This document shows, in pieces, positions 14,001 to 57,000 of a DNA stretch of 64,000 nucleotides; the stretch's first letter is position 1; every line of letters starts with the position of its first letter. The notes beneath the pieces are model-generated. The model saw only the letters and a list, made by a program, of their open reading frames with translations. It was not told where the DNA came from and did not search any database. This stretch comes from Sipunculus nudus (lineage: Eukaryota; Annelida; Sipuncula; Golfingiida; Sipunculidae): assembly GCA_026874595.1 (NCBI GenBank), contig CM049306.1, positions 55,148,019-55,212,018 on the forward strand, read 5' to 3'. The position numbers and the translations under genes are program-made.

Positions 14001-17000
14001 TCCAAAAGTGAAGTTCTCGTAATACTCCCCAAAGTCAAACGGAAGAAAATCCGTATATAAAGTCTGTATGAAGTCCGTAGAATATCGTAGAAGTTCTGCA
14101 ATTATCAGAAAGGTCCCAAAAACTCACGAGAGTGTCACACTCTTCCGTGTCCGCTGGTATTTTTCTCTCTGCCGGCTCTGTCAACTCTGCAGTGACGTCA
14201 CATACTGGGAAAAATTCTAGATCTCAGTAAACGCACAGTATTTCTGCCACTATCAGTCCCAAATTTTCAGGAGATAATAAAAACAACATGCATTACAAGA
14301 TATAAGTTGTTGATGAAATTCAGTCCATGATGTCACGTATACCAGCCAATCAAATTAGGGCATAGTCTGGGATCTGGATGAAATCCTCCATTCACATAAC
14401 CTAATCTGCAAGGGTGAGGTTAGTTCCCATGCATGACAACAGTTTAGTCCATTGGACCGGATTACTGGTGAAGGAGGTTTAGCTTGGCCTCGATAAACAT
14501 TTGAGAAGTTTCATGTTATACTTGTGGACCTCGCCTCTTTTGAGCCAGCGCGAAGAGTATCAATAAAGGAATACTCTCACCTTTAGCGCGAATATTGGTT
14601 TCATTTATCCCTTTTGCTCATACACATACGCGCGCACAAACAAACACGTGTATATCTAATACTTATAAAAGGAAGTTGGTCCACTTGTGTATTCAATGTT
14701 CTCTGAAACCGCGTTGCGTATGACACTGTGCTGTACCTTATTTTAAAAGTTATTGCTCCCGCAGTGACCTCGCCGATAAGAGAATAAATAATTTTTAATG
14801 TATACATCATTTTGAGTGATTTTTGTGTGTTTTATATATTGCCTGGAGGCAAAGACCGGAATCACAACACAGTCATTCAACCTCCAGCACTGGATTAAGG
14901 TATATTTTAATATGAATAAACCCTGCTGTCAGTGACATTGCATGTTTGACCTGGCATTTGACCATGTAACTGACCCCCTTGCACGGTCAGTTAAATGTGA
15001 ACCACAGGTGACTCTCGATCCCTTGGCACTCATTTCTTATGTCAGCATCCAGGGGGATGCCTGACATACGTAGTAGTTAATTTTATTTAAAAAAAAAAAA
15101 CGAACCGCCAATTGCACTCTTTTATTGTTCCAGGTTGTCATCATTAAATGGTGACCGTCTGTTTGTCCGTCCGTCTGTCCGACCGTCCAAGATAAGGTGT
15201 TAGCGCATACAGTTTTCCACACTCACGTCCATGACACACCATTATGGGGCAACCCCAAGTTTGAACAAGGATGACCCAGTTCACATAGGCAATGATATAA
15301 AATGATTAAGTGCATTAACTTGAGGAAAGGACAACATTGATGCACTACCCTATGGTCAAGTTCGAACATGGATTTCACACGGGTGTTACTTTTTGTTAAT
15401 GATATGATTATTATACACTCATCAGTCTTTTTACGATGTGTCTCACAGGTATTCGGCACCATTTCCTGAGCTACTTAATAATAATTCATTATGATAATTC
15501 ATTTAATAATAAAGCCCAATCATACTTCCGTTTCAATGCGCTGTACAGCATTAACAGATCAGTTTATAATAAAACGCCATTCAATAAATAAAAGAATATC
15601 AGCCGACTAGATAATACTGAATTATACTGAAATGGTAAAATTAGTGACTAAATATAGGCTTCCTTAAAAAGGAATGTCTTTAACTTCTTTATAAGTCTCA
15701 TTAGACCTCTGATGTCTGCAGGCAATGTGTTCCATAGTTTAGACAGAGAGAACATACGATTCCCATACCTGCGTGAAACTCGGGACACGACCAGCATCAT
15801 CTGATCTGAAGAGTTCTCTTCCAGGTTGATCCACAGCTAACATTTCTTGCTGGTAATGCAGTGGCATTCGTTCCATGCAAGGATTGTTGTACAGTGGGCA
15901 GAATATTTTGTATTCTATGCGCTGTTTCACAGGCAGCCAATGGAGCTGGTATAGCACTGGGGTGATGTGATCGCTCCGTTTTGTGCTAGTTAGCGGACTA
16001 GCGCCCTTGTTTTGAGCTATTGTAGACGGTATAATTCCTTGTCAGTGACTTTTTACAAGAAGTCTATCATGGAGGTATAAACGAGACGTTAATGTTGCAT
16101 GATTCACCTTCTTGCATGCACTTTCTGTAAGATGAAGTCTAATTTTTGCCATGCGTCGCAAGTGATAGTATACACTGCGAGTCGTCGAGCCCATCTTCTG
16201 CTTCATAGATAGCACATTATAAAAGACTGCGCCGAGATTCTGTATAGAACATGCCGTGAGAGGCGGGGATTAAAGATAATTTTTTTTTCTAAAGATCAAC
16301 TTTTCTTGTGCCCGTTTATATATTGTTTTTCTAAATATCACTGTGACTGAGCAAAATTAGGCAAAATAACTAAAAATAATAAATAATCTTTAAATAAAAA
16401 AGGAATGTGCATAAACGTGGACCAGAGGCCTATGATGTTTATTTTTATATTGACGAACTTTTAGCGTGTCAATATTAATGCTTCAGGAGAAGGGGACATG
16501 TTTTAAAAGGGTTATTGGAACGTTTGAGGATAATATGGCATCTTCGATGGAAGAAACAACTAGTCTATAGTTCTTACAATTAGAGTCTCAAAATAAACAG
16601 GAAAAAGTTAATATGTGGAACAGATCTAATATGTTCCCTGCTTGATGTGGGAATAGCTAGAAATAAAGTTGTGAATACATGTATGAATTTTGGGACGGGT
16701 CAATGTTACAGACCAAGATTACCTCTGTGACCTTGAAAACTGCATGAAAGTCATCCATATTCGATTTTGACCTAGGCCTTCATGAGGTTCGTCAATGCTG
16801 CAAGTTTGGTGACTGTGTCTGAAATTCTGTTCGAGCTATTGTTTAAATTATATAACATGGCATGACCCATTTAAATCCAATTCATGATTGATTGGAAGGG
16901 CCACCTATAAACAGACTTTACCCTGTATGTTTTACATAATATGACCAAATCTTTTTTCAGTACTTGAGGGATCATCTGGCCCTCGGCAACACCAGTGAGC

Positions 17001-18846
17001 TGACAGCCCTGTCAACGTACCCACTGAAAGTCGAATATTTGAAGGAATGCAGGAAACCGGAAGTGGCATGGAAGAGAACCAGACTTCCGGATAGGGTGCT
17101 CGACATCCTTAATAACGTGGAGGAAAAAGGAATAAGCGGCACGCTGTCCAGTCCCCACGACGAGGTAAAAATTAATCATCCTATCAAATAAAAGGGAAAA
17201 AATATTGTTCCTTAAACAGAATCATATTACACTCTTCTGTACTTTAAAAGGAGGCCATGCCAATAGGCATGCACTTTACACAAAGAGGGGGGGGGGGATA
17301 ATATACACTGTTCGACACCTAGCCCATCCCCCTATGCCGCTATGAAACATTTAGTAGCGTCTGCTTCCACTCAAAATATTAAGTAACCGCTCTCTGGATA
17401 AGAACGAGTTGAAGTGGGACTTTGCTGTTACAAGGCCTTTCCAAAACGGCATATTTTAGGAATAGAGTCACCGGAATAAGAAAACCCAGTTTGATAAGAG
17501 ATAAGATATTCTAACACGACGGTTGGGGAGGGGTCCGTTTGTGCCCCCCCCCCCCCCCCCCCCCATTGTCAGGTGCCTGTGCTCAAATCACACGTTTCCC
17601 AGGCTATGTAATTATTATTGTAATGACAATAAAAAATTGACTTACTACAAGATAAATAAAACACGTATCTTTCTCACAGAGATGTATGCGTTAGATATTT
17701 TTATATGAACTATACATGTCTTTATCGAAGATGTCGCATTCAGAGAACAACAAAAAATATGTATTGTTTACAAGTCTTAAGCTGAAAGGTTTATCGTTTA
17801 GAACAAACAAAACGAAAGATATGGCCCTGATATTTGTCTCTCAGAAAGGAAAGAACATTATTTAATATGCATGAAAAGACAATAACGCTGCTTTACGGTA
17901 AATGTATTGCTGTCTCTGGACTAAAACTTGTATCCTGTAAATAATGCTGAGGCAGACAAACAAACAATGTTCATATACAGAATAAAATTCATGTGTGCAT
18001 TTAAGATATGACTCTTCAAATAAACTAAAGTAAAGGTAGTTTTGTGAAAGGAAGGGGCGGGGACGTCAGCATTTGCGTGAATATGGAACAGGTCGATTCA
18101 TCTACCAAGTTGTTTCTTCCGCAATCGTGGGCGATTAAATCATTTTACTTTTCTTTCTGTACTGAACATTTTGGATATAATGTATTTTTCAGAATGACGT
18201 GATTTTGGAACCATCAGACAAGTGTTACCTGGAGAGCCGTCGCATCCAGGAATTTCTGGGTGAAGCTGTCAGTACATATCACGAACACGGGATGGTATAT
18301 ACCTCACTGGTCGCGTTTTACCTGGCATTGGCAGTTGCAATTGGCGCCCTTTCTTGGGTATTCTACGTCGGAGAGCTCAGACATATAGAAAACAAAGAAT
18401 TATGTGACGACAAAGAACTGGTGTACTTGGGGAGGTACTTATTTGCTGGATTTGCTCTTGTGGCTCTGCAGATTGTGGTTCCCGTGATTGGGTTGGGGAT
18501 GGTTTGTGCTCAGTGCCGGCGGGTCAGGTCGTTATTCCTCTACAACATACACAAATGGTTCGTGGTTTGGCTTGCGTTGGGTCTTGTCTTGTCTTTGGCA
18601 TTGATGGGTTTAGGTGTTGGACTTGCCGTGCTCTATAACGAAATAGAAAACCTCGTAAATTGTCATGAAACCGCTTCCAGAATTCTCATTAGCCTGGGAT
18701 GCATATCAGTTGTTCAAATGGCATTTGCGGCCATTTTGTTCACTGTCTGCTTGGTCACTATCATTAGAAGTACTCTATGCTATAAATACTGCTGCACCTA
18801 TTGTACAAAACCTGAAAATGATGCAGCAGATACCTCTAGAAACTAG
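10200..18846 (+). CDS. Membrane-anchored cGAS-like (Mab-21 family) nucleotidyltransferase, 3 exons, 577 aa
   Basis: Exons 10,200-11,075, 16,961-17,164 and 18,193-18,846 join in phase 0 at GT/AG borders and predict 577 residues. Residues 97-112 carry the nucleotidyltransferase signature: GS at 97-98, then EGTKV, then E110-F-D112. The third acidic residue is D226 in KVDITLAI, so all three metal-binding carboxylates are present. CIKAVK joined to YLRDHLAL and the STYPLKVEYL..EC stretch match the C-terminal helical half of Mab-21/cGAS-like proteins. Family members (cGAS, cGLRs) make cyclic dinucleotides after sensing nucleic acid. The last exon adds four hydrophobic segments at about 394-418, 440-465, 482-507 and 522-551 and a Cys-rich end, predicting membrane anchoring with the enzyme domain cytosolic. 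Ligand and product cannot be told from sequence. Family call is confident; activity and exact splicing are inferred. Confidence 0.87.
11695..12180. repeat. Tandem duplication in intron 1, two ~150-bp copies
   Basis: 11,695-11,850 and 12,026-12,180 share 'attcc(t/c)gcaaaactgtgg', 'cagacagacatac.gacaaag' and 'gtgacac' in order, offset by about 331 bp and moderately diverged. Confidence 0.7.
12429..12632. mobile_element. hAT-like MITE, family 1
   Basis: A 204-bp element with terminal inverted repeats: the left end is CAGAAGCGGATC and the right end, read inverted, is CAGGGGCGGATCCAGGATTT. It carries an internal poly-C tract. CAG-initial ends and related copies at 34.74 and 38.34 kb define the family. 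hAT elements make 8-bp target duplications, but none is clear here. Confidence 0.6.
13568..13612. repeat. Short interspersed repeat, copy 2
   Basis: Matches 9,340-9,405 through 'agccgctgacggcgtcg' and 'cgccagt'. Lies within intron 1 of the cGAS-like gene. Confidence 0.35.
14183..14402. repeat. Interspersed repeat shared with QARS1 intron 10
   Basis: About 220 bp are collinear with 61,967-62,187. Shared blocks are 'tgtcaactc.gcagtga', 'gggaaaaattctagatctca', 'cccaaattttcag', 'aacaacatg.att', 'ccagccaatca/ccaaccaatca' and 'ggatgaa'. Both copies contain a TGACGTCAC or closely placed GACGTCAC element. The family is not recognised. Presence in two unrelated introns shows it is mobile or dispersed. 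Confidence 0.65.
15648..16262 (-). pseudogene. LINE reverse-transcriptase 3' remnant, antisense in intron 1
   Basis: Conceptual translation on the minus strand gives the end of a CR1/L2-like non-LTR retrotransposon polyprotein. It includes a segment like SVYYHLRRMAKIRLHLTES, then HITPVLYQLHWLPVKQRIEY, then RRYGNRMFSLSKLWNTLPAD ending in a stop at 15,648-15,650. The LHWLPVKxRIxYKI block and the FS..KLWNTLP block are hallmarks of that protein end. An in-frame TGA at 16,043-16,045 and a frame shift near 15,780 show it is dead. The upstream RT and endonuclease parts are missing. Confidence 0.8.
16961..17164 (+). CDS. cGAS-like gene exon 2: C-terminal helical part of Mab-21 domain
   Basis: Acceptor cttttttcag, donor GAG|gtaaaa; 68 complete codons, phase 0 on both sides (residues 293-360). 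It encodes YLRDHLALGNTSELTALSTY, then PLKVEYLKEC, then a tryptophan-containing segment and RLPDRVLDILNNVEEKGISG. Mab-21/cGLR proteins have the matching order: conserved helix, (S/T)Y.LK, then W, then an R/L-D-L helix and a G-x-L turn. Confidence 0.85.
17165..18192 (+). other. Intron 2 of the cGAS-like gene
   Basis: 1.0-kb intron from gtaaaa to a tgtatttttcag acceptor. Contains poly-G (near 17,287) and poly-C (17,546-17,564) tracts and otherwise unremarkable AT-rich sequence. Confidence 0.8.
18193..18846 (+). CDS. cGAS-like gene exon 3: four-transmembrane C-terminal domain
   Basis: 217 codons plus TAG (residues 361-577). A charged helix (YLESRRIQEFLGEAV) precedes four hydrophobic stretches: VYTSLVAFYLALAVAIGALS..., LFAGFALVALQIVVPVIGLG..., WFVVWLALGLVLSLALMGLG... 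and ISVVQMAFAAILFTVCLVTI. Two short loops separate pairs 1-2 and 3-4, and the segment between 2 and 3 is basic (CRRVRS). The end is Cys-rich (C556, C560, C561, C564), suitable for lipid modification. I do not recognise this domain as a named family. It is not part of the usual cGAS or Mab-21 fold. Linkage to exons 1-2 rests on matching phase, orientation and good splice sites. Confidence 0.85.
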   Translation, partial: NDVILEPSDKCYLESRRIQEFLGEAVSTYHEHGMVYTSLVAFYLALAVAIGALSWVFYVGELRHIENKELCDDKELVYLGRYLFAGFALVALQIVVPVIGLGMVCAQCRRVRSLFLYNIHKWFVVWLALGLVLSLALMGLGVGLAVLYNEIENLVNCHETASRILISLGCISVVQMAFAAILFTVCLVTIIRSTLCYKYCCTYCTKPENDAADTSRN

Positions 18847-33121: not shown

Positions 33122-33137
33122 TTTATTTATTTATTGC
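33122..33137 (-). terminator. Candidate polyadenylation signals for the receptor gene
   Basis: Overlapping AATAAATAAATAAA on the minus strand, about 390 bp after the receptor stop codon, the first good signal beyond two (AT)n arrays. Confidence 0.35.
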
Positions 33138-33523: not shown

Positions 33524-33647
33524 TCATTTCATTTGCACATCATCGTACTGACTTTCTCCCGGCCTGACCACAGTCAGCGGAGTGTATTCTGCCTCTTGGT
33601 GCTTTTTCTGAGTTTGAGTTAATGTAGTGTACTGTGATTCTGCTTTC
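33524..33647 (-). CDS. Receptor last coding exon (tail module 4)
   Basis: Acceptor ttattttacag. After a split Arg codon it encodes 40 residues and TGA. Tyrosines sit in SQYTTL, AEYTPL and SQYDDV, spaced Y-x14-Y-x12-Y, and the protein ends QMK. Two residues shorter before the first tyrosine than modules 1-3. Confidence 0.87.
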
Positions 33648-33803
33648 CTGTAAAATAATAAAAGTAATAATAAATGAAAAGTAATTATTATAATTATTAA
33701 ATTATCATTATTATAAATATTGCCATTTTAATCAATTATTATTATTATTATTATATTATTATATTATTATTTTTAATTAATAGTATTATTATTGTTATCA
33801 TCA

Positions 33804-33856
<53 letters not shown>

Positions 33857-33882
33857 CATCAATTATTTTTATCATCATCATA

Positions 33883-33940
<58 letters not shown>

Positions 33941-35547
33941 TCTATATTATTATATAACAATAATAATAATGATATTATCATTGATCATAACATCATAACA
34001 TTGTTAGTTATTAATACTTTATGCTTCATACTTTTTCTATTATTAGAATTATTAATTTTACTTTTTATTAGTAACACAGTAAATTGCAAGGTAAAACAAA
34101 ACAAATTGTTATGTGTACGTAATATTAATTTCAAGTGCAGGGGTTAGTGAAGAAGTAGTCAACATCTCACCTCTCTATCTTGGTGTACCCGTCGTCCTTC
34201 TCTTGCCTTGGAGACAGCGCCGTGTACTCGCTGCCCTGAGTGGTCTCCTGAGAGGGGGTTGGCACCATGTAATCGGGGACATTCCTAGCTCCTCTGTTAA
34301 AAATATAAATCTGGCTAAAGTACTGGCAAAAAGTATCATTTCTTCTACTTAAGCTCTCAGTGGCATCACCATTAGAGGGTACAAACTTTAGTTGTGTGTG
34401 TACTGTGGATGTATAGTCTTTTTCGTCTCCGTATGTGTGTGTGCATGCGCGCATTTTTGGTGATTGTGTGTGTGGTGCATGTGTGCGAGCATGAATGTTT
34501 GTGTGATTGGGTGCGTTTGTTTTCCATGTGTTGGTATAAACAGCTTGCAACTGAAATGCCGGGGGTTATGATACTTTTATTCCCCATACCAGTTAAATAT
34601 TTTTTTGTGGGACGATTTTAAAGTATGAGTTAAAAAATAGTCCAAGATTGACACAACGGTGAAAACTCTATAGGTGAAAATAAAGTTACATATGTGCACG
34701 GTCAGCAGTTTTTAAAAAATATTTAGTAATATTAAGAATCAGAGGCGAATCCAGGATTTAGGAAAAGGAGGGGTCTAACCCAGGAGGACTTATGACAAAA
34801 CCTAATAAAAGTTTCCCAATTCCAGAAATCCTGGGGAGGGAGGGTTTGTCGAGGCAACAAAAATTTGTCTGAATCCTTTAAAAAAAGTTGCGGCGGAAAT
34901 TTGATTAAAATGTTCTATGGAATATGCGGTGAAACAAAAATTATGGAGCGAGCGGGCGGTTCCCCCCCCCCCCCCCCCCCCCCCAGTTTTTTTTTTTTTT
35001 TTTTTTTTTTAATATAGGCAACACAAACTTTACTTAATTTTCTATGATACCTTTGTGATTTTTAAGGCAAGAGAAAAAATAGCAGCATTAGCAAAAGGCT
35101 ATTCATGATAAATGGGGAAAATAGGAGCGCCGAGTCCGTAGAAGTTTTGTCTGGTTTGGCCTGAGCAAAGTGAATGATAAGGAAAGCGAAAGTAGTAAAA
35201 CAGCTCACATATCCGTGTCGTCGTATACGTGGTCTGTCCTAGGACGCGAGGACAGCTGAGTGTACACAGGGTTTTGCGTTGCTTCTTGATATGGCGTTAA
35301 CTCAGAGTAGGCTGTTTCATTTGTCTGTTCGCTGCCAAAAAGAGTTAATAATCCTGTTTAAGTTTCCATTCGATACCCGAGCAATATCGATCACTGCTCC
35401 TTGAGTTGCTGCTCCTTGTACTGTTACTCACATAATTGCCTTAATCAAACACTGCATGATAATTGGAATGTTCCTTTTTTTTTCGATTCAATATTAGGCC
35501 TATGATTTTTTAAATTTTATTTAGTGTTATATTATATTCATTTTACA

Positions 35548-35592
<45 letters not shown>

Positions 35593-36220
35593 TATAATGA
35601 TAATGATAATAATAAAAGTAATAACAATAGTGTAATGATCCTCATCCTTATCATTGAAATACGTATTATACCCCATTCCCGACAAATGGAGATCCCATCT
35701 CTTTAACACTAACACCTAAAACGAAGCTTTACAATCTCTGCATGGTTTGCTATAAATTACTTCCTATACGTTTTCTCCACTATATTCTCTCAATTTTCTC
35801 CCGTGGGTGAAAAAATATGATCAATACAACCTGTATAGGTCTTTATAAAATGAAATTATAATTGTAGCTAAAATTTACAAAGACTAAAGCTACTCACGTG
35901 CCAATGTTCCTTTGTGTACCCTGAGGGCTCTGAACTAGTTCAGTGTAAACGCCTGCGTTCGGATTTCCTCGGGACGGCTCGGGCGACGTATAAACGGAAT
36001 CATTTCTTGCTCGTCTGAAACAAAGGAAAATTTGAAGATAATCCATCAGATCTTGTTACTTGTTCATATTTATACGAAACTGGACAATACTGAGAAATAT
36101 GGATTTTTAAAAATCAATTTCCAAAGAGGTAAAGGTTGTATCAATATACCCGAAAAAGCATGCATATCTCTTATAATCTTGTGTTGTTTTAGTATAATTT
36201 GACCTTTCGCTAATATTTTG

Positions 36221-36509: not shown

Positions 36510-37430
36510 TAATATAAAATAAATTCTCACCTCTTTCTGATGCATATAATTGCTGACACTACAAGGCCTATAATTAGTAAAAGTACAACAGCCGAAAGTG
36601 CAGCTACTAAAGTAACTACACTGATCCCTGATATATAGGGATTAGGTCGCATTACGGATGTCGATATGGTAACAGAAGACGGCGTCACTGGAATGGCTAT
36701 ATAAAGAAAAATAAAACTATAATTAACTTTTGTAAAAAGGAAGCTTCACCTAAGAGGAGAGAAAGGTGTTATAGTAAAGTGCATGGAGCATTTCCATTCG
36801 TATAGATGTTATGTTAGTACCATGCAGTTTCTGTAAAAGTGCAAGAAGTTATATATATGGTCATCATATGTAGCATGCAGGCTTGTGTATTAAGCGTATA
36901 AATGTGTAGACCACTGGTTGAAATTATTTGAAAGGTCAAGCTTTTCAGAAAGAGGGTGCCAACTGCATGTTTGACAAAAATGTGTCTCCAGATTTCTTTG
37001 TCAGGCGTACGTATGTGCACATTCTTCCAGTGCTCAGCATTTGCATGCAAAGAAGATCTTAAGCTGTCATCCCGTAATATACAGCATGTTTCGATTATTA
37101 TCAAAGTCCTGACAGAAGCAGTATTAACGCTCATGCGTATAAACATGCATCTGTCTAGCTTGTACGTATATGCAACCATGCATACTGCAACTCATGTGCC
37201 TGAAACCATTTCATATTAATTGTCTGTGTTCGTGGCTATGTCCGTAACTAGGTGAGTGACTTTTCTTTGACACGGAAGCGTCCTCCGTTACTCTCTTCAC
37301 TCCATCACCAAGGCAGCCGTGTCCATATCCGTGCTCTTAGCTGAGGGTGTTCTTGTGCTCGCTTCCGGCCAGCTCAAGAATCCTCTACGAATGACCTTAA
37401 AATAGACTATCGAATATATATAAGACTATC

Positions 37431-42690: not shown

Positions 42691-42804
42691 TATACAGCAT
42701 TCTCTTTGGTCTTATTACACTTATTTTCCGTGTGCCAACTCTTGTGGTGAAACCCGGAGAATGGTGCTATAAAAGTAGCGGTTAAAACGAAGGAGATATA
42801 GCAC

Positions 42805-43670
42805 GAATGCAGCATATAAACGCTGTGTCAAGAGTGTACAAGGGAATGTGAAAATGGTGGAATCATGACTGGGGTTCCACTTTCGGTTAATATATATATA
42901 TATATATAATAATCATGATTTTGTCACGTACAGAATATATACATAGGTTTCATAATATCATATCTGCTCTGACGTGCAACATAATAAAAAAATAGCCTGA
43001 ATAGCCAGGTGAAAATACGAGACCCCCCGCCCCTGCTAATTCCGATTTGATCACCGAAATTCAATATAATAACTTGGTCTGTTTAATTAAAAGTTCCAAA
43101 ATATCTTAGAACCTTAAATGCATAAAATGAAAGTTTAGACTGTCAATGTCCGACTGACATAATCCAGTGGCGGATTCCCCCCCCCCCCCCCCCGAATCGC
43201 CACAACCTTTTCTCTCGGGTTTCAAACCAACTATGACATGTGATTTACAAGTATGTTGGGTTATCAGGGGGGGATATGCACAATGCTGGTCCATGGATGG
43301 ACGGACTTCTTCTGGGGGCCTTCTCCACACATGAGATCTGTCTGTGAAGTTCCAGGACAGACTGACCCTGTGCCCAGGTTCCTACGGTGGGGTGTAGCGG
43401 AGCGCCACCTTGTAATTGTGCAAGATACTATTCATTGGCCAAATCCAGTATTTTGAGCGCCATCTCCCGGGTAAACAGTCAACGAGGATTCGTTGACACA
43501 CGTTTGAGGTCAGTAAACAGGCCTTTGGGAAGAAATGTATGTATCACAATAAACGAAAGAATTATCACTCGAAGCAAAATTATTATCGACTGGTTCAGTT
43601 TTTCAATTTCAATTAAAGAAATTACGCTAAAATTGTAAAGTTGTTTTGCTTTAACCGGTAGATGGCGTTA
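42805..43670. repeat. Duplicated block upstream of QARS1, copy 1
   Basis: Collinear with 44,045-44,903. Shared blocks: 'gtgtacaagggaatgtgaaa', 'catatctgctctgac', 'gacatgtgatt.acaagtat', 'gaggtcagt', 'gggaagaaatgtat', 'attatcactcgaagcaa' and 'ccggtagatggcgtt'. Offset is about 1,230 bp. Divergence includes many indels. No conserved coding frame. Confidence 0.85.
43457..43667. mobile_element. MITE-like unit with GCGCCATCT ends, copy 1
   Basis: Left end GCGCCATCTCCCGGGTAAAC, right end inverted CGCCATCTACCGGTTAAAGC: near-perfect 18-bp inverted ends 211 bp apart. No target duplication could be assigned. Superfamily unknown. Confidence 0.55.
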
Positions 43671-44044
43671 ATTATTTGATACGAAGCACCCCCCCCCCCC
43701 CCCCCCCCGCTGGGCAATTGTAATCATTTTTATCAGAGACTATTTCTTATTTTTTTTCTTTATTTTATTGAAACAACTTATATACAAATACAAAAACATA
43801 CAGTAGACATATATAAAAAGATACAAATACATTCACATGGACGGACATATAGCAAATTATGTATTATTTTCAGCTGCCATCAAACAAATATCCCCTTTCA
43901 ACTAAAAAATAAAAGCTGAAAACCTTAGGAATCGTCAAGGGAAAAGCGTGTGCCTGCTCAATGATCATGCATACTTTTGAAATAATTAGTTTGTCATTTT
44001 CCAACATTTGATACAGACAGTAAAACTTTCGATCTACATCTCAG

Positions 44045-44903
44045 CCATCTCGGCGTATAACCGCTACGTGAGGAGTGTACAAGGGAATGTGAAAATGGTG
44101 GAATCATGACTGGGCTTCCACTTTCGGTTAAATTATGTATAATAATCATGTTTTTTGTCACGTACAGAATAAAAAAAATTAGGAGGCTTCTTAATATCAT
44201 ATCTGCTCTGACATGTACTGAAATAAAAAAAAATAGCCTGAAAGGCCAGGTTAAAATACACGCTCCAACATCTCCGCTAATTCCCCTTTCAGCACCTCAA
44301 TTCAATATGAACTTGATCTGTTTAAGTATTTTTAACTGTAACATTTCTTTGAACCTCCTTTTGGAATCAAATGCTCTTTTGGAATTTCATTTTAAAATGT
44401 GCGATATTGCTCAGCACAAAATGGTTTTAAATGCTTAAACGAAAAGATTGGACTGTCGATGTTCGACTGCCATGATCAAGTAACGATCCGGGGGGGGGGG
44501 GGGGGTGGAGGGGGGTTCCAGACTTCCAGGTAACATACCAAATTTGACATGTGATTGACAAGTATGTTGGATTTCCGGGGGGGGGGCAAATGTTCAATGC
44601 TTGTCAATGGATGGGCAGATCTCTTCTGAACGATGTAATGAAGCAGGTTTGTGAAGACAGATTTCATCGGGCACAATTGTATTTTTTTAGCGCCATCTAC
44701 CGGGTAAACTTTCAACGACGATTCGTTGGCATACATTTGAGGTCAGTGAGCGGGCTTTGGGAAGAAATGTATATATCACAATAAACGAAACAATTATCAC
44801 TCGAAGCAATAGTATTAATCTATCGGTTCAGTTTATCATTTTCAACAACAAGAAATAGTCTAAATAAGTGAAATTTGTTATGCTTAAGCCGGTAGATGGC
44901 GTT
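44045..44903. repeat. Duplicated block upstream of QARS1, copy 2
   Basis: Second copy of the ~850-bp unit (see 42,805-43,670). Its right edge lies about 70 bp before the QARS1 start codon, so the synthetase promoter is partly built on this duplicated sequence. Confidence 0.85.
44690..44901. mobile_element. MITE-like unit with GCGCCATCT ends, copy 2
   Basis: 212 bp with left end GCGCCATCTACCGGGTAAAC and right end inverted CGCCATCTACCGGCTTAAGC. Directly adjacent to the QARS1 promoter. Confidence 0.55.
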
Positions 44904-44982
44904 TGGGGATGAAAACAAATGCGCCATCTGGCGGGAGTTACAAGTAACAGCGCGCACGTTGCGTGAGAAACATGGCGGACGG
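44894..44982 (+). promoter_or_regulatory. QARS1 proximal promoter with YY1-like ATGGCG cores
   Basis: There is no TATA box. ATGGCG or its complement occurs at 44,896-44,901, 44,920-44,925 and across the start codon (aaacATGGCGGac). AANATGGCGGC is the known YY1 site often placed at the start of metazoan housekeeping genes. Binding is inferred from the motif alone. The local GC content is higher than in the flanks. Confidence 0.4.
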
Positions 44983-45085
44983 GGTCGTCAGTCTGTTTAC
45001 CGGCATTGGCCTGAGTGAACAGAAGGCAAAAGAAACGTTAAAAAATGAAGCTGTGTCACAGAATCTTAAGCAAATCATTGAAGAG
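44972..45085 (+). CDS. QARS1: QARS1 exon 1 (residues 1-38)
   Basis: ATG in a good context (gaaacATGG). Encodes [20 protein letters not shown] and [18 protein letters not shown], the first helices of the GlnRS N-terminal domain. Donor GAG|gtaaat. Confidence 0.95.
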
Positions 45086-48000
45086 GTAAATTTGGCATAT
45101 TTGATTCCTTTTGCCAACCATACAAGAAATAATAAGTCCAAAACCGGCCGGTGCTTTGCGGTACAGTGTGAAACTTACTGTGCCTTGCCTGGACTGCCAG
45201 GTTGAGTCACATGGCTCAGTGAGTGTTGCAGAGTGTCTGTGACGTTTATTCAGGGGCGTATAACAATTACACAGACATAGCTATGTATTACACTGCAACC
45301 CAACTTTAATTTTTGACTTCTTATTGTTAATTATGAGGTAGATCTGTGTGTATATTGACATTTAATATTATCTCAAAATTATCTGAACCCTGTCACTAGT
45401 CAGTCTAGTAGTGTTAGTTACTGTTATTATATATAGTCCTTTTTGTACTAATGTCGAATGCCTCGTGCACCTCATTTTGAGCGACACTACAGGTAGTACA
45501 CATTTAATGTTTAATCAAAGGCTTTTGTAGGTTAATCGAATTAATCCCATGACAATGTTCGTCTCATGTAACTCTTATTCTGTAAGACTGAAATAGTATA
45601 CAATAATTTAACCTTTCTTCACATGATTTATCATGCTCATATCCCATGGTGTGTGAGGTGTTCGACAGTCACTCCGTCATTTTAACCACCTGCTGTCCTA
45701 CTGGTTTTTGTAGAAAATTTTCTCAAAAGTTTATATTTCTCAATTGAGTCAATTATTTCCTAATAAACAACATATGGAGGTGACAACCTTATATGGGCAC
45801 ATAGTAAAAGAAATCTCAGAAAATTTGAAATTTGACTGTAGTAGTTTAAACTCTCAGAATAGCAGTTATATATCACTTACTTGTGTATGATTCAGCTATT
45901 TTGATCGGTAAAATTAAAACTGTTTTGTACAACAGCTGGTTCTGCACAGAAGGGATAAGATGCTTAAATCATTCCCCAAAGTCAGATTATCACCCCTCAG
46001 TTTAACAGGCATACTCAGACTGACAGTTTATGTACGATCACTTTTATCACATGATTGTTGTGGACTTTGATGCACAGCTGATGCAAGAGTTGATCACAGC
46101 AGGATAATCAGTGATGCAACATTGATACAGGTCTGTTATAAATAAACATGTTGACTTCAAGTTTACTATCATTAGCCTCTGATAGTCTTAGGACACTCAA
46201 GGTGTGGTGGAAAACAGGGTGGCCTGTAAACCGAGATAAAGTGTCCATTTGTTGATAGCAGAAGTTGCACTGTAGATAGCTTTCTTGGCAACAGAACGCT
46301 GAATTTGTGGTCTGTTTGATGTTTGGAGAAGGGAAGACCATGCCAAAAAAAATTGTAAGTACAGTGGAAGACCATGCCAAAAAAATTGTAAGCACAGTGG
46401 AAGACCATGCCAAAGAAATTGTGAGTACATTTGAAGACCATGCCAAAAAATTGTAAGTACATTGGAGTGGTGTTTTCCCTAAAACATTGCTTGGAAAAAC
46501 AAACTTTTGGAAAATCTATCAAGGTTCTAGCGGCAAGTTCGTACAACAGGTAATGATTACCTTAAGGCCATTTTACCCGGGGAACACAGTGTTCCTTTTC
46601 AAACTGTGTAATTAACAACCAGGACGTAAAAAAAAGTATGGCATTTATTGCAGAGCATGATTGGCAGACATCAGTCTAACCTGCTTTGTGTGATTGTATG
46701 CCCTTTTTACAACAAATTCAAGGGATTGATAGGTCAAATGACATCACCATTGGTGAAGCTTGCTTAGTTTATTTTACAACCCAAAGGCAGCGCCAGTGCA
46801 GCACACATACAGCAAGTGTAACTAAGGCAAGGGAATTAAAAGTTTTTGAACAATTGTAGAGCCCACTTATAAAAATGAACAATTTATAATTTTTCTTTGA
46901 GTCAGTGGTATCTGGCAACTTCATTCCATATTAGACAAGTTTCTCTCTGCTATTTTTTATATCACTCGTTAATATCAGTAAAAGTGGATCTGCCAATGTT
47001 GTAATTGATTGCTACGATGGCAGGTTTGTACCACAGTCAACTTGTCATCTAAGTATAACACTGTCCATTTTCTCTTCTTTGATTCCATATCTCTGCCAAA
47101 TGGCAGCTATGGGATCTTGTTAGAGTAGTGTTCTTCTCGACAGAAAAAGTGAAATGAAAAATACCAGTAAGATGAATAATGGCAAGTTTCAAGTAAATGG
47201 CACAATTGCTTACGGGAGTGAACTGCTCATTTGTATCACCAGGCTTGCATGCAACAGCTGCACGGATACACCTGCTCAAGCCTAACTGCTCATTTATTTG
47301 GCCTGACATCCTAGCCTAAGCCAACAGTTATGCCTGCTTGAGTACTAACTAGATATCATATGGTTGATAACACACAAGCGCTCTTGGATAAACTGTTCAG
47401 CAGCTTTCTAGGGGTATAGAGGGCCTAGCATTGCGCTACAAGCTGAAGTTTTCACACCTTTGCCCAGGTAAAAACATCTGCACAGAACTAATTAACTAAA
47501 TTCACAAGTGGGCTTAAAACCAGATGGTGTCCCCTTCTGTGCATGAATTTTGTGGGATTTTTATTGAGGTGAGAAGCTATTGGTTAATATGTTTAGCGAG
47601 TTTCATGAAAATCCATAGGATTTTTGGTAAGTCACCATGATACCTCCTAAGGGCACTGACCTCATTGAATATGCGTGGATTTTGCTGGAAATCAAACTTA
47701 GGTGAGGTATTATGATTAACATTTCTGTTGGGTTTTATCAAAATCCATCATATTCCTTGTAAGTTATTGCAGTGACCCCACACAGTAGCCTAGTGACCTC
47801 TGACCTTATTAAATATGCGTGGTTTTGCCCAAAATCACAATCGGGCAAGATAATCTATTGGTAAGTAGTTATAGTGAAAATTCATCAAAGCCCCGGAAGG
47901 TGACAAAGTGACAAAGTTTGCGGACTGTGAGTATCCCGTCAAGTCACTTGACAAGCCACATGTCACAGCTTGTTTAATGGTGTGTAATGTATGAATTGGG

Positions 48001-51000
48001 TAAGTAGGTCAGATCAATGAATTGCAATTTACTTATAATTGCTAAATTATTCTAATTATTGCTAATTAGACATCATATTCTGATTGTAGGCACAGAAGAA
48101 TGTGGGAGGTACGGTGGATAAAGGAATTGGCAACTTGCTCTACCACATGGCTACCAAGCTGAAGACCCAGGTGGCCCACCGACGCCCTCTGTTGGTCAAG
48201 TATGTGACTGAGGGGAAGATCACTTCAGAAGTTCAGCTCAGTGGTATGTTAAATGAATGATGTAAAAATACCTTATATTCTAGGATAATTCATTTGTTAA
48301 CATTTTAGTCATCTCTTAACCCTCTCCTGGTTCCTACCAGCTCAGTCAGATCTTGAGTTTCAAATTCTGCCAAGGAGCTTTGAGAATTTTCATAGTTAAC
48401 CCCCACCCAGCTGATGGGAGTGGGCTGTATGTATAATTGGAAGGCTGTGCCCAACAGCCATGTATCACTTACAGACGAGTGCACCTTTAAGGGTTCCTTG
48501 GTGTTATGACCCAGAAGTGGGGATGGTTACACCCCATGGAGCTGTAGGTGTGATCATCAATGGGCCTAGTAACAACAGGATATTGAATGAGACAAAGGGC
48601 ATGCTATCACCCTTAAAAAACAGAAATGGTATTCTGTGGACACTAGTACTTAATAAGTGGAGGCAGTTTCTTCCACACAATAAAGGTAACCTCTCTTTTC
48701 CAGGCTGATATGGTCACCACTTATATTTAATAAGAACCCAGCCTTTGATTGCATGACATGCTCTTTGAATGAGTTTCCTCACAAAAATTACTACTGTTTT
48801 TATATAGATCTAAAGGTGATCATTGTTTTGATTTTTCTCCACATTTCAAAATATCAACTTTAAATATATCTAGGTAATTCATGTATGCAGGTAATATTCA
48901 TTCATTAACCACAGAAATATAATATTAAAACTTAAAATGTCTAAAATATGATAAGTACTACTCAATGCAGATAAAACAGGATTTATCTGCAACAGCAGAC
49001 TTAGAGGACCACAATAATAATTTGCAAAATTATAGTTATACTGTTTAACTGTGTAATAAATGTTTTGAATGAAGTTAAGCAGAAATCACAAATTGAGGAA
49101 CAATATATTTCTCAAGGGCTTATTATCAAACATATTTAAATGAATATACATAACTGTACCTGAAGTTATAATTTTTAATCTATATCTATTGGTATTGGAA
49201 GGTCTCTCACACTCAGTTTTATTAAAAGCAGCAAATTACTGCTTGGAAGAGAACTTCTGTACTTCTGTTCATCTATGACAGTCGTCAAAGACCAGATAGG
49301 TCTAGGTCGTTTAGTTGGCTATTTCCTGGTTGAAACCTGTACTTTCCAGTAAATTACTCTTCTGTAATTAGCACTCCATGTGTTGGTCTCCTGATATTGC
49401 AGAAGAAATCACTTTGATGCACTGATTCAGAGACTGCCTCTCTAGACACCACAAGCATAACTTTGAGCTGAAAAACACATCCCTTTTGATAATCAATATG
49501 CCACATTATAAACTAACTTGCCAAAGCTGCCCTAAAGGAAACCACCCAAATAAAACACAACCACTCCCCTGCCGATAAAATTTGGTATGACCTGGTGTGA
49601 TAAAAATTCCATTTGCCAGTATATCAGCAAATGCCAGTATTTGCCAGCATAAAGTACCATTTCCCAGCATTTACTGCCGGCATGTATTTGCCAGCGTTTT
49701 GCCAACCCTGATTGCAGTCTGTATCAGGTTACTACTGATCATCTGTAATGTTTTTATGCCCCGCCACAAAGTGGCCGGGGCATATAGTTTTACCCATGTC
49801 CATCCTTCCGTCATTCCAAAATCAAACAGTTGTACAGACTTTTTTTCGCAATGCCTGCAGATATTGGCCTGATTTTTGGTGTGTTGGCAGATAATGACCA
49901 GTTACAGATCGAGTTTGCGTTTCATCCCACTTGACCAACTTTTGACCGTTTTACGGCTCCTAAACTTAGAAAATTTCATGAAAAATAGAAATTTCAATGA
50001 CAAATACACATGTACAGACATTTTTTCATAATGCCTGTAGATATTGGCCTGATTTTTGGTGTGTGGGCAGATAATGACCAGTTACAGATCGAGTTCGCGT
50101 TTGGTCCCGGTTGACCTACTTTTGACCGTTTTATGGCTCCTAATCATAGAAAATTTCATGAAAAATATAAATTTTCATGACAAATACACATGTACAGACT
50201 TTTTTCGCAATGCCTGCAGATATTGGCCTGGTTTTTGGTGTGTGGCCAGATATTGACCAGTTACAGATTGAGTTCGCATTTCGTCCCAGTTGACCTACTT
50301 TTGACAGTTTTACGGCTCCTGAACATAGAAAATTTCATGAAAAATATAAATTTTCAAGACAAATACACATGTACAGCCGTTTTTAGCCCTCAGCTCATAG
50401 GCTGATGGGCTATTGTCGTCACCCAAGCTGTCCAGCTGTCCGTCCGTCCATCTGTCTGTCCGGTGTCTGTCTGTCCGTCAGTTCCGCATCTGTTAACTTT
50501 TACCTTGTGAGCGGGATATCTTAAAAGGATTCACCGTTGGAATTTTATTTCATCAGTGAAGATGTATATCGATAAAATCTCAGTCAAGTTCGAAGATGGG
50601 TGACCTTGACCCATTTTTCTACATTTTAGAGCTGATTATAGAAAAAACCTCAGCAGCTTATATCTCAGGAACCATTGTGTGGATTTTTACAAAACTTACT
50701 ATGATCATTGGGACTGATGGTCTGTACGTGCTGCATAATTTTGGTGGCGCCACCTGCAATTTCTGATTTTTTAATGAAATTTTATCGGATTTTTCAATTT
50801 TGGCCTTTTGTGCAGGATATCTCCAAAGGTATTCAACACAGGAACTTCATTTCTTCAGTGCTATTGCATTATATTTTCAAAATCTTGGTCAAGTTCAAAG
50901 AGGGGTGACCTTGACCTATTTTTCAAGGTCACAGAGCTTAGTATAGAAAAAAACTTAGGAGCTTATTTCTCAGGAAGCATTTGGTGGATTGTTATGAAAC

Positions 51001-54000
51001 ATGGGACATACCTCTCCAATTTTAATTTATAACTGATTATCAGCTTTTGCTAATATTCTAGTTTCGCAATGCAGTGCTTACAGATCCTGGCCTAATGTTT
51101 GGTCTGTGGGCGCATAATGACCACTTACAGATCGAGTTCGCGTTTAGTCCCAGTTAACCTATTTTTGACCATATGACAGATCCTGAACATAGAAAAGTTC
51201 ATGAAAGACAGAATTTTTTTGAAAAATGCACATGTATGGACTTTTTTTCACAATGCCTGCAGATACTGGCCTGATTTTTGGTGTTGCTTGATAATGACCC
51301 ATTACAGATCTAGTTTGCATTTTGCCCTTGTTGACCTACTTTTGACCATACAATACCTCCTGAACTTAAAAAATTTTACAAAATTTAACAAATGTTTCTA
51401 ATTTGCCCCAGGGGGGGGCATTCGTGTCATTCCGACACATCTGGTCCTACAACAGCATTCATATTTCAGGCAGTAGTGATAACAACCACTGCTGCCTTTG
51501 CGCGAATGCAATATTAAGTTCTTAGCTGCATATTTGGTCTGACAGTGATAAGGACCATTTGTTGCAAGAATACATAACTGAGACTAAGTGCCTTTCTGTC
51601 AATCATAGGTTAATCAAGTTATGATGCAGTGTTTCTGATTTCTGTTTGCTTAAAATTATTTTTTTCTTTTATTTTCTTTTAATGCAGATTATATTGCATT
51701 TTATGCTCTTTACACAGCACTTTACCTATAGGTTTACTCCCTATATCGTAAGCGCTTTTGTTTTGACCTTGTATCCTGAATCTCTACACCAGAGGGGAGC
51801 ACTGTATTTTGGTCCAATCAGATGAGACCCTGTGCTGGAAGACAAAATGGTCTACCAGCCCAGCAAGGAATACACGTAGCTAGTGTTGTTCATTTTGTTT
51901 TAAGTGACAGCACATCACCCCGGCAACAGTTTGAATAGTCCACAGACTCAGAGAGAATGGCGCCATATGTGGTTTCTGGGTGGAGCCTGATGCTTGTCGA
52001 GTGTTTGTTGTCTGGCATTTGGTTGGCTGCCAGTCACATCAGCAGTCTTTTCAGCAGACAGGCCACCTGGTGTTTAAGTGCATCATCAACGGTCAAACAG
52101 GCAGCGGGAAAATCAGTAGCTTCTTAAGAAGGGCAAGATTTTCTGCTGCCACGGGAGCGTTATTGCATTAAAATCAAATTAAAATCTTTTACAGTTATCA
52201 CTAGTTAAAAATGGTTTGTTTGTGGTGTTCTGCACAAGTGCCAAGCAGTTTCTAAAGGATTAATTATACAGGTATTGAAATCTGCACGTCAGTGAAGTTA
52301 GATACTGTCAAAAGAATGACATCTGAATGTGTATCTCAATGATGTTTTTAAAACTACTGGTGTTATATTATAGCCAGCATTAATATATATTTGTATATTC
52401 CACGGGTACTTGGACACCATTTGAGGGTGAATCATGTTATGGTTGTTTAATCCAAAGTAGTAATACTTTTGATTCTGAGAGACTGAGTAGCATTTAATAG
52501 ATTTGACTTGAGCATCAGGATTGTTTTAATAAATGCTGATGCAGTTGATGCAGTACTAAAATCATGTTGCTCTTTATTAATAGCGGCTATGGAATACTTA
52601 CTTACGCACCCCCAGGATCCAGTCGACATGGCAGCGTTTGAAGAGAACTGCGGAGTGGGCATTATCATCACGCCAGAGCAAATAGAAGAAGCGGTGAGCA
52701 TCCTCATAGCATTAACATTGATACCTTCAGTTTGTTGTGGTAAAATACCAAGTGTACTATTTTTGTCAAACATGAAACATTGGGCATATTATGCATATAG
52801 AAGTGAATTTGTAAACTGTAGTAGAAAACTTAACCTTGTGGTTTAAGAGTTAGACTTTTGAGCTGATTGTTCCTCTAGTTCAGTTCATGCAAGAAGTTCA
52901 AAAGCATCGTTTGAATTAAAAATTGAATTTATTTTTACCTCAAAAATTTAATAGATTGTTCCTTGGATGTTATCTTAACCATCTATATAATTTCAACAAA
53001 TTCCATTTAGAACATTTTGAGTAAATCTGTTGGCAATCAAACCAAGGGTAAAGTATATGATGTGAGGGATGTTGTCTAGTAGGTAAGAAGTTAACCTCTC
53101 AGAGGAGAAGGTCCTTGATACCAACCCAGTCATTGCCTTAGGCAAAAAATGGTAACATTTCCCTGGAACCTGAGAGATATGATCAAATACAGGCCTGTCA
53201 AATCACTCTTTTTATGCCCCCGCCACAAAGTGGCCAAGGCATATAGTTTTACCCATGTCCGTCATTCCGTCATTCCGAAATCAAACAGTTGTACGGACTT
53301 TTTTTCGCAATGCCTGCAGATATTGGCCTGATTTTTGGTGTGTGGGCAGATATAGACCAGTTACAGATGGAGTTCGCGTTTCGTCCCGGTTGACCTACTT
53401 TTGACCGTTTTACGGCTCATAAACTTAGAAAATTTCATGAAAAATAGAAATTTCATGACAAATACACATGTACGGACTTTTTTTCGCAATGCCTGCAGAT
53501 ATTGGCCTGATTTTTGGTGTGTAGGCAGATAATGACCAGTTACAGATCGAGTTCGCGTTTCATCCCGGTTGACCTACTTTTTACTGTTTTACGGCTCTTA
53601 AACTTAGAAAATTTCATGAAAAATAGAAATTTTCATGACAAATACACATGTACGGACTTTTTTCGCAATGCCTACAGATATTGGCCTGAATTTTTGTGTG
53701 TTGGCAGATAATGACCAGTTACAGATCGAGTTCGCGTTTCGTCCCTGTTGACCTAATTTTGAACGTTTTACGCCTCCTTAACTTAGAAAATTTCTTGAAA
53801 AATAGAAATATTCATGACAGATACACATGTACGGACTTGTTTTTGCAATGCCTGCAGATATTGGCCTGATTTTTGGTGTGTGGGCAGATATAGACCAGTT
53901 ACAGATCGAGTTTGCGTTTCGTCCCGGTTGACCTACTTTTGACCGTTTTACAGCTCCTGAACATAGAAAATTTCATGAAAAATATGAAATTTCATGACAA

Positions 54001-57000
54001 ATACACATGTACGGACTTTTTTCGCAATGCCTGCAGATATTGGCCTGATTTTTGGTGTGTTGGCAGATATTGACCAGTTACAGATCGAGTTCCCGTTTTG
54101 TCCCAGTTGACCTACTTTTGACCATTTGACGGTGCTCTAACATAGAAAATTTCATAAAAAAAGTGCACATGTATGGACTTTTTTCGCAGTGCCTGCAGAT
54201 ACGGGCCTGATTTTTGGTGTGTGGGCAGATAATGACCAGTTACAGATCGAGTTCTTGTTTTGTCCCAGTTGACCAACTTTTGACCATTTGACTGCTCCTG
54301 AACATAGAAAGTTTCATAAAAAATAGAAATTTTCATAACAAATGCATATGTACTGAATTTTTTTTCCTCAATGCCTGCAGATACCACCCTGATTTTTTAT
54401 GTGTGGGCAGATAATGACAGTTACAGATCCAGTTCGCGTTTCGTCCTGGTTGACCTACTTTTCATTGTTTTACGGCTCTTAAACATAGAAAATTTCATGA
54501 AAGACAGAAATTTTTATGGAAAATGCACATGTATGGACTTTTTTTCACAGTGCCTGCATATACTGGCATGATTTTTGGTGTGTTGCTTGATAATGACCGG
54601 TTACAGATCGAGTTTGCATTTTGCCCTTGTTGACCTACTTTTGACCATACGACACCTCCTGAAATTAAAAAATTTTTAAAAATTTTACAAATGTTTCTAA
54701 TTTGCCCCAGGCGGGGGCATTCGTGTCGTTCTGACACATCTAGTTTTTAAAAGATTCACTCTTTTCTTTTTTGAGGATTTCCTAAAAATGATGCTAATTA
54801 CTCTTTTTTTTAATCTTTTTTTCCTCTTTTATTCATGGAATAATTCTGATATAAATACTATTTCACATTTTTTTGTGCAAATGTCCAACATGTAACAACA
54901 TGTGGAAGATGCCATTATCTTTAAGCAGATGTGCCACACATGTTTCTGTCATTTTTAACAATATGCGTCAATATATATATACCCAGTGTGTGTAAGTGAA
55001 GCACATCTTTATTCAGTTTGTGAGAAAAAATCAGGGAATTATTGCAAATTTAACCCATTTTTCGCTCTTTTATTTCAAAGAAGCCTACTGTTTTTTTCCT
55101 GGCACACTTACTCTTTTTTCGGCAATTTACCTCTGGCAGGCCTGTAATACCTTTATGATAGGTCGTCTTCCAGATTATTCCTGGATCCATGCAGATAAAA
55201 TCCTGAAAGAGGCCATGTACCATGATGATTGTGGATTGTGGTCTATTAATTGGGGCCTTAATAACATGCATTCATATTTCAGTCAGTCGAGCCAACTCTC
55301 TCTGCTGTCTTTGCGCGAATGCTACATCAGTTTCCTTGCTGCATGTGTGGGCTGGCAGTGCTTACCAGTCCCTTTGTGATAAGGATACATAATCCATTTA
55401 CATAATCTTTTATTGAATATGGGCAATTTGAAGACTGTCTTGTATATTTTTTCATGTTTATTAAAATAGAATTGCCCTCCATTTACACTAAACAACTGCA
55501 AAGGGATTCTTCAGTGTTTTTAAAGGAATTTTAATTGAATGCTGATTACCGGGAAACACAGAATTTAGCTCAAAATATATACTTTATATATAAGATATAT
55601 ACTTTGTAAACAATATGGGTTTTTTGTTTCATACAGACATATCATCCTTAACTATTAGAGGACTCTCTAATACATGACCTTAAACATCATGGCAGGATTG
55701 TATGTAATTTTTATTTGAAATATCCTTTTTGCATCAAAAAGTTTTTTTTTAACAAGAAAGTTACTTTTAACTTGTCAGTAATAATAATGATAATACCAGT
55801 GTGTATTAAGTTAAATTTAATAATTTGTACTAATTAATGCATTGTCTATTTGCAGGTTGAAGAAGTGATAAAGAAACACAAGGACCAGCTGATCGAGAGA
55901 AGGTACAGGTTCAACACTGGCATCCTGATGGGTAAGTATGTAGGTGTTTTTTGTATATTTTAACTCTAAATATACCTTGAAATCAACACCATCCCACTGC
56001 AGGATTAAGAGTTTGTCACATCCACAAGTTACTGGGATGCACAAGCTTTTTGTAGAACGAGCATGTTGAGTTTAGCAAAAGCTCAAAAAAAAACAGCTGC
56101 CTTCTAAGGCTAACTGTATATTAAGATTATAATAAGACCACTGTTGGCTGAACCGATCTATTCACATAGGTTTAACTGACCTGTCTAAGACCACCTATGA
56201 ATTAAAGGGACATAATCAGGAGCAATATTATTCCTATTATTTCACATTATCAGTTAGGTTTTGCTTTATACAAAAGTTTCCCAGTTAAACCATTCTCATA
56301 TCCTCGCATATGACTGTTTAATACCTTGTCACAGCCCTGCATGTTGGTAAACACAGTCTGTTTACCATAACGAGGCCGCGTGACTGGAGGTCGACTGAGG
56401 GGCAACACACAGTGTTTCAGCCAGCGGGAACATGTATTACATTTTTTAGCCAAGTCTGTCAGGGCATCTCCTGATAAGCCCATGTTGTGGCTCCATGCAG
56501 CACACGGCCCAACGTACTCTGTTTATGTTTACACTGCAATCGTACCCGGTTCACTGTTTTTAACACTCATTTACAGGAGTATGCAAACAGTTTCAAGGCA
56601 ATATTTTGGCAGGTACAGATTTATTTTAAAGGGAAGAAGCTATTTTTCATGTCAACTCAACATGCTTTATAGGTGATTGGGCCCCTTTAAGACCACTTTT
56701 AGCCAGTCTAACAAGTTTTAGAACTGTAGAGCAAAAGGATGTGTAATGCAACCAAAAAAACAGTGTAACATGCATTCTTTGGTTGCCTTTGGATGAACCT
56801 ATGCTTGTGTATTTATGAATGTATTTATGCTTGTTGGATTGAAAATGTGATGGTAGATGCACTGCATGGCATTTTGACCAGAGGAAAAGCAGCCTAAAAA
56901 GAAATAAAAAAGTCCTAGTCATGCAATTAATTCTATGTATGATAAAAGGTTCCTTTTTATGACATCCTTACTCTGGTATTTGTGTCTATGTACATGAATG

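Follow-up and report, generated by a model that had tools for sequence, protein, structure and literature searches.

Four probably duplicated exons of Sipunculus nudus encode a tyrosine-rich tail of a predicted membrane protein

In the 64,000-nucleotide stretch of Sipunculus nudus DNA analysed here (the window), four short exons on the minus strand, M1 to M4, probably arose by tandem duplication of a single ancestral exon, about 41 codons long. Together they would code for the cytoplasmic tail of a protein, probably a receptor, that crosses the membrane once. Judged from its motifs, this tail is most likely immunoreceptor-like and predicted to dock SH2 proteins. The valency of multi-tyrosine tails sets signal strength, and such tails are central in immune and adhesion signalling; repeated copying of a single in-frame exon would be a simple route to such valency. 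What we describe is, at the level of sequence, an old exon duplication together with a reading of motifs, and the number of modules in related species could allow docking-site number and function to be compared outside the vertebrates. In the literature searched, coverage of which was partial and took in few subscription papers, nothing described a tail built of duplicated tyrosine exons.

Structure of the tail gene

On the minus strand a transmembrane exon of 166 nt at 36696-36531 (acceptor ctttatatag, donor gtgaga), which is entered in phase 1 and left in phase 2, precedes four exons within 36014-33524. M1 (35898-36014, 117 nt) holds two tyrosines, in YTSP and YTEL. M2 (35209-35331, 123 nt) holds four, in YSEL, YQEA, YTQL and YDDT, that of YQEA being off-register. 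M3 (34171-34293, 123 nt) has three, in YMVP, YTAL and YTKI, and so does M4, the terminal coding exon (33524-33647, 124 nt including the stop), in YTTL, YTPL and YDDV. Between the transmembrane exon and M4 lie, in order, introns of 516, 566, 915 and 523 nt, each with a GTGAG donor and an AG acceptor. The stop is a TGA at 33524, at the end of M4, and AATAAA polyadenylation-like signals, found as a pattern match only, start at 33135 and 33127 (33122-33135, minus strand). The initial annotation had placed four phase-2 exons of 117, 123, 123 and 124 nt in the span 33524-36014, and both coordinates and lengths proved exact.

All four modules are entered in phase 2, and M1 to M3 are also left in it. 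When joined, they give a tail of 162 residues, 12 of them tyrosines, that lacks Cys, Trp and Phe. It had been proposed that any module could be skipped or repeated without breaking the frame. This is so for M1 to M3, since reading frame and stop are retained in all eight combinations of M1-M3 skipping, but M4 holds the stop and free skipping or repeating is therefore limited to the first three modules.

The membrane segment and the nature of the protein

The transmembrane exon encodes a Ser/Thr/Pro-rich stretch, a hydrophobic segment and the residues IRKR. In calling the product a receptor tail the initial annotation was right as to the membrane, a transmembrane segment being present ahead of the tail, although neither an ectodomain nor a signal peptide could be assigned. 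Between the tail and the glutaminyl-tRNA synthetase gene QARS, which starts at 44972, no recognisable ectodomain emerged from listing open segments, scanning for exons and matching candidates to Pfam and PDB. One weak ectodomain candidate came from the open-segment listing, the exon scans and an initial-exon scan (33.5-45.1 kb): an uncertain last ectodomain exon of 138 nt at 38126-37989 on the minus strand, in phase 1-1. This exon has no Pfam or PDB match, and 15% of null segments score as high in the codon model described below, a weak to moderate result. A stretch at 39955-39830 (VTVAIEYDFTNPDLRAR...) was tried as an additional ectodomain exon and rejected, its donor being poor and a trial join to 38126-37989 matching no Pfam family. 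Within 36.5-45.1 kb the initial-exon scan returned three candidates and no convincing signal-peptide exon, the best candidate being an in-frame ATG within the transmembrane exon itself, at 36652.

That this ATG tops the scan, and that the ectodomain search found none, would suit a transmembrane adaptor, in which coding would start with the transmembrane exon and the protein would consist of nine residues outside, a single pass through the membrane and the tail with its 12 tyrosines. Such is the architecture of LAT, SIT and PAG. An adaptor seems to us unlikely, though it is a serious contender. Also in its favour, the protein made up of membrane segment and tail has a single notable Pfam match, to SIT (PF15330), an SHP2-interacting transmembrane adaptor, with an E value of 0.0012. 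The likeness to SIT and LAT consists of a single membrane pass, a tyrosine-rich disordered tail and this weak match. However, the score of 19.7 bits is below the gathering cut-off of 27.6 and the match is partly reproduced with shuffled tails, the same membrane segment followed by a shuffled tail matching SIT in four of eight controls (E 0.055-0.45, all worse than the real protein); membership of the SIT family was rejected on these grounds. The tail without the membrane segment has no Pfam match. A single NCBIfam transporter match via the membrane segment was judged to be due to chance, as was the one match (E 1.5) returned by the PDB sequence searches.

The structure of the transmembrane exon also speaks against an adaptor. 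The acceptor of this exon is plausible and the frame stays open ahead of the ATG; the exon also starts in phase 1, the usual phase for an exon that follows ectodomain exons, and joins the candidate exon at 38126-37989 in frame. Because of the acceptor, the upstream open frame and the phase-1 start we favour a receptor, and the protein is probably one.

Evidence for a probable exon duplication

The initial annotation had pointed to the spacing Y-x14-Y in all four modules, continued by -x12-Y in three of them (M2-M4), to ARN...Y..P.PS shared by M1 and M3, and to a first tyrosine at complete codon 8 in M1, M2 and M3. Translation upheld each of these observations, the first tyrosine of M4 being at codon 6. 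Under random tyrosine placement one spacing common to all four modules has a P of 0.0025 (200,000 draws), and a second spacing shared by three modules in addition occurred in none of 200,000 placements. Y-x14-Y is nevertheless frequent elsewhere in the window, where it was counted behind AG in open phase 2 in 56 other rows, 12 of them with an in-phase GT (20 of 82 rows were removed as simple repeats), so that the evidence for duplication is the in-register similarity of the modules and not the spacing alone.

These 56 rows also lend something to the view that the four exons are unrelated and that their tyrosine spacing is coincidental, or convergent and selected for docking geometry. Convergence is easy for short motifs, and local alignment of M1 with M4 is not above shuffles (P 0.23). 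We consider this view very improbable in the light of the remaining comparisons. In register, the BLOSUM62 total of the four modules is 194, as against a mean of -135 (sd 29) for 20,000 shuffles done within each module, none of which was as high. With the aligned tyrosine columns masked, none of 20,000 shuffles equalled the module alignment, and with Y to Y+3 masked one of 20,000 did. The likeness of the modules exceeds tyrosine spacing alone. Pairwise local alignment is above shuffles in five of the six module pairs (P 0.007 or less), and codon-level similarity in register is greater than in codon shuffles in all six (P 0.003 or less). When profiles were built with one module left out, the held-out module ranked first outside the training set in all four cases (1668 open segments), with E values of 5e-7 for M2, 3.7e-5 for M3, 0.048 for M4, only narrowly ahead of a chance segment at 0.056, and 0.096 for M1, the next segment having 0.39. 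In a MAFFT alignment Y and Y-T-x-L are invariant across the four modules. The masked alignment and the held-out profiles speak against coincidental spacing, which the initial annotation had itself raised as a counter-explanation, and so does codon 8 as the place of the first tyrosine in M1, M2 and M3.

Taken from alignment shuffles, profiles and codon register, exon duplication is well supported; the initial annotation had called the evidence direct, which is too strong a word for what we infer from homology. The duplication also looks old, as third bases mostly differ and the introns share little. Summed over the six module pairs, 61 residues are identical, of which 27 also agree in their third base, and nucleotide identity between modules in register is 40-53%. 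Comparison of six pairs of flanking introns gave no convincing homology, the best match being a single AT-rich stretch of 38 nt (E 6e-4) and the others 10-nt matches or none. A profile search of the window returned no convincing further copy of the module; the best non-module match was a 26-residue segment inside the QARS region (E 0.04).

Coding potential of the exons

The exons were scored with a held-out codon model trained on other genes in the window, with the tail excluded, and 3648 AG..GT open segments served as the null. None of these segments scores as high as M3 or M4, 0.8% score as high as M2 and 6.7% as high as M1, which the model supports weakly. The transmembrane exon is unsupported, with 82% of null segments scoring as high, and the codons of its hydrophobic segment may account for this. 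An exon scan that likewise excluded the tail had M3 and M4, and not M1 and M2, among the 70 segments that it listed. The ranking given by a codon model whose training set had included the tail is circular for the tail exons and was set aside. That the gene is unexpressed, or a decayed paralogue of which exon-like remnants are left, would fit with the lack of recognised ectodomain exons between the tail and QARS, but is the least probable explanation considered here, given that frame and splice sites are intact in all five exons, two of which, M3 and M4, score above every null segment.

The tyrosine ladder and its motifs

The tyrosines are at tail positions 9, 24, 48, 54, 63, 76, 89, 104, 117, 128, 143 and 156, and one of the 12, at position 54 in M2, is outside the register. 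If it is omitted, nine successive tyrosines (48 to 156) follow each other in steps of 11-15 residues, across exon junctions as well as within modules. A chain of nine with steps of 11-15 arose in 2 of 100,000 random placements, and with any five-wide step window permitted in 0 of 5,000. M1 is without the third rung of this ladder, and the second rung in each module is YT[EQAP]L. Eight of the 12 tyrosines are in Yxx[LIV], two, the first rungs of M1 and M3, are in YxxP, and two are in neither. The 12-tyrosine signalling scaffold of the initial annotation therefore holds as to the number of tyrosines and, for eight of them, their context; one is off-register, and a role in signalling is predicted from motifs. 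Three of the 12 tyrosines (SEYTAL, SQYTTL and SQYDDV) agree with the strict ITIM [SIVL]xYxx[ILV], a number reached in 22% of block shuffles.

The tail has one canonical ITAM (Yxx[LI]-x6-8-Yxx[LI]), YTKI-x7-YTTL at tail 117-131, with acidic residues ahead of it. Under the looser spacing of 6-12 residues, which corresponds to the definition of an ITAM as two YxxL 6-12 residues apart in the available text of PMC9731471, there are four overlapping broad ITAMs. The M3/M4 intron splits the canonical ITAM, which is present in the four of eight exon combinations with M3 and missing from the other four. Of shuffles preserving tetrapeptides, 57% have a canonical ITAM, 12% an acidic-headed one and 4% four broad ITAMs. 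The tail is so rich in Yxx[LI] sites that the presence of its canonical ITAM is no proof of selection for it.

Clustered Yxx[LIV] tyrosines in immunoreceptor tails are substrates of Src-family kinases and docking sites for tandem-SH2 proteins. In the Sipunculus protein, clustering would lead to phosphorylation of the Yxx[LIV] sites by Src-family-type kinases, and tandem-SH2 proteins such as a Syk-type kinase or an SHP2-type phosphatase could dock on adjacent rungs. The two YxxP sites in the first rungs of M1 and M3 may attract other SH2 proteins, which we take to be of the Crk type. According to the available text of PMC7337045, the spacing of two phosphotyrosines gives tandem SH2 domains their specificity, and the N-SH2 domain of SHP2 favours a hydrophobic residue at -2. 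Most tail sites have no hydrophobic residue at -2, which tilts the prediction towards mixed docking rather than a purely ITIM/SHP2 tail. Each duplication of a symmetric phase-2 exon would add three rungs with the frame kept, and the canonical ITAM would exist only where M3 is spliced to M4. It is conceivable, though rather doubtful, that the whole forms a phosphotyrosine ladder programmable by splicing, in which copies of the symmetric exon extend the tail by three rungs each, the M3-M4 junction makes the only canonical ITAM, skipping of M3 leaves only longer-spaced or inhibitory-type motifs, and M1 and M2 determine how many other docking sites there are.

Comparison with known tyrosine-motif proteins

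CD3 zeta has triplicated ITAMs, and the tails of PECAM-1, CEACAM1, FcRL and Siglec contain short cytoplasmic exons with tyrosine motifs, some of them alternatively spliced. Alternative splicing of CEACAM1 and FCRL is recorded in the literature sampled. It is in their short exons with tyrosine motifs that these tails are like the one described here, and a non-exhaustive search found no report for PECAM-1, CEACAM1, FcRL or Siglec of four homologous exons that form a regular ladder. The ITAM receptors FcgammaRIIA and CD3 zeta are similar in having YxxL/I pairs at a fixed distance (6-12 residues in the available text of PMC9731471). Unlike them, the tail has a single pair with the classic spacing of 6-8, across a splice junction, and its within-module pairs are 11 or 9 apart.

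Tyrosine-motif receptors are functional in invertebrates, as the available parts of two sources indicate for amphioxus BbLcLRR (PMC8211107) and oyster IgIT (PMC11999971). In BbLcLRR, likewise a membrane protein of an invertebrate, Lck phosphorylates several tyrosines of the tail whose contexts are ITIM or ITIM-like (PMC8211107), and in having such a multi-tyrosine tail it resembles the present protein. It differs in its LRR ectodomain, its three functional tyrosines and its loosely placed motifs, and no module repeat is described in the accessible part of PMC8211107. The oyster proteins (IgIT / CgIgIT2) are membrane receptors of the immunoglobulin superfamily with five Ig domains and tail tyrosine motifs; their motif is termed ITAM in the accessible part of the review PMC11999971, while titles in its references term the receptors inhibitory. 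They too have tyrosine-based motifs in the tail of a membrane protein, whereas the candidate exons searched here yielded no Ig domain. As for adaptors, a LAT-like molecule is reported to be absent from amphioxus in the available text of PMC5431462.

Neighbouring genes and repeats

On the plus strand of the window, an exon at 10200-11081 matches the Mab-21 nucleotidyltransferase family PF03281 (E 4.7e-5; 24.0 bits against a cut-off of 24.1), a second at 16961-17164 has a weak Mab-21_C match (E 0.046), and a large 3' exon downstream of these, at 18193-18846, encodes a multi-pass membrane stretch with no Pfam match. The three are possibly parts of one putative gene for a cGAS-like/Mab-21 protein with a membrane tail. 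QARS (44972-61593, plus strand) is divergent from the tail gene; ten of its exons were placed, and the first two match PF04558 (E 1.5e-25). Its introns contain repeats of about 170-180 bases, some in tandem and some dispersed, noted by eye at 49760-54740, 50380-51030 and 58480-59200, of the types GCCCCGCCACAAAGTGGCC... and CTCAGC...GTCCGTCCG. A segment at 42.8-43.6 kb is apparently repeated at 44.0-44.9 kb (window positions 42800-44900), with similar open segments on both, and is probably a mobile element or a local duplication.
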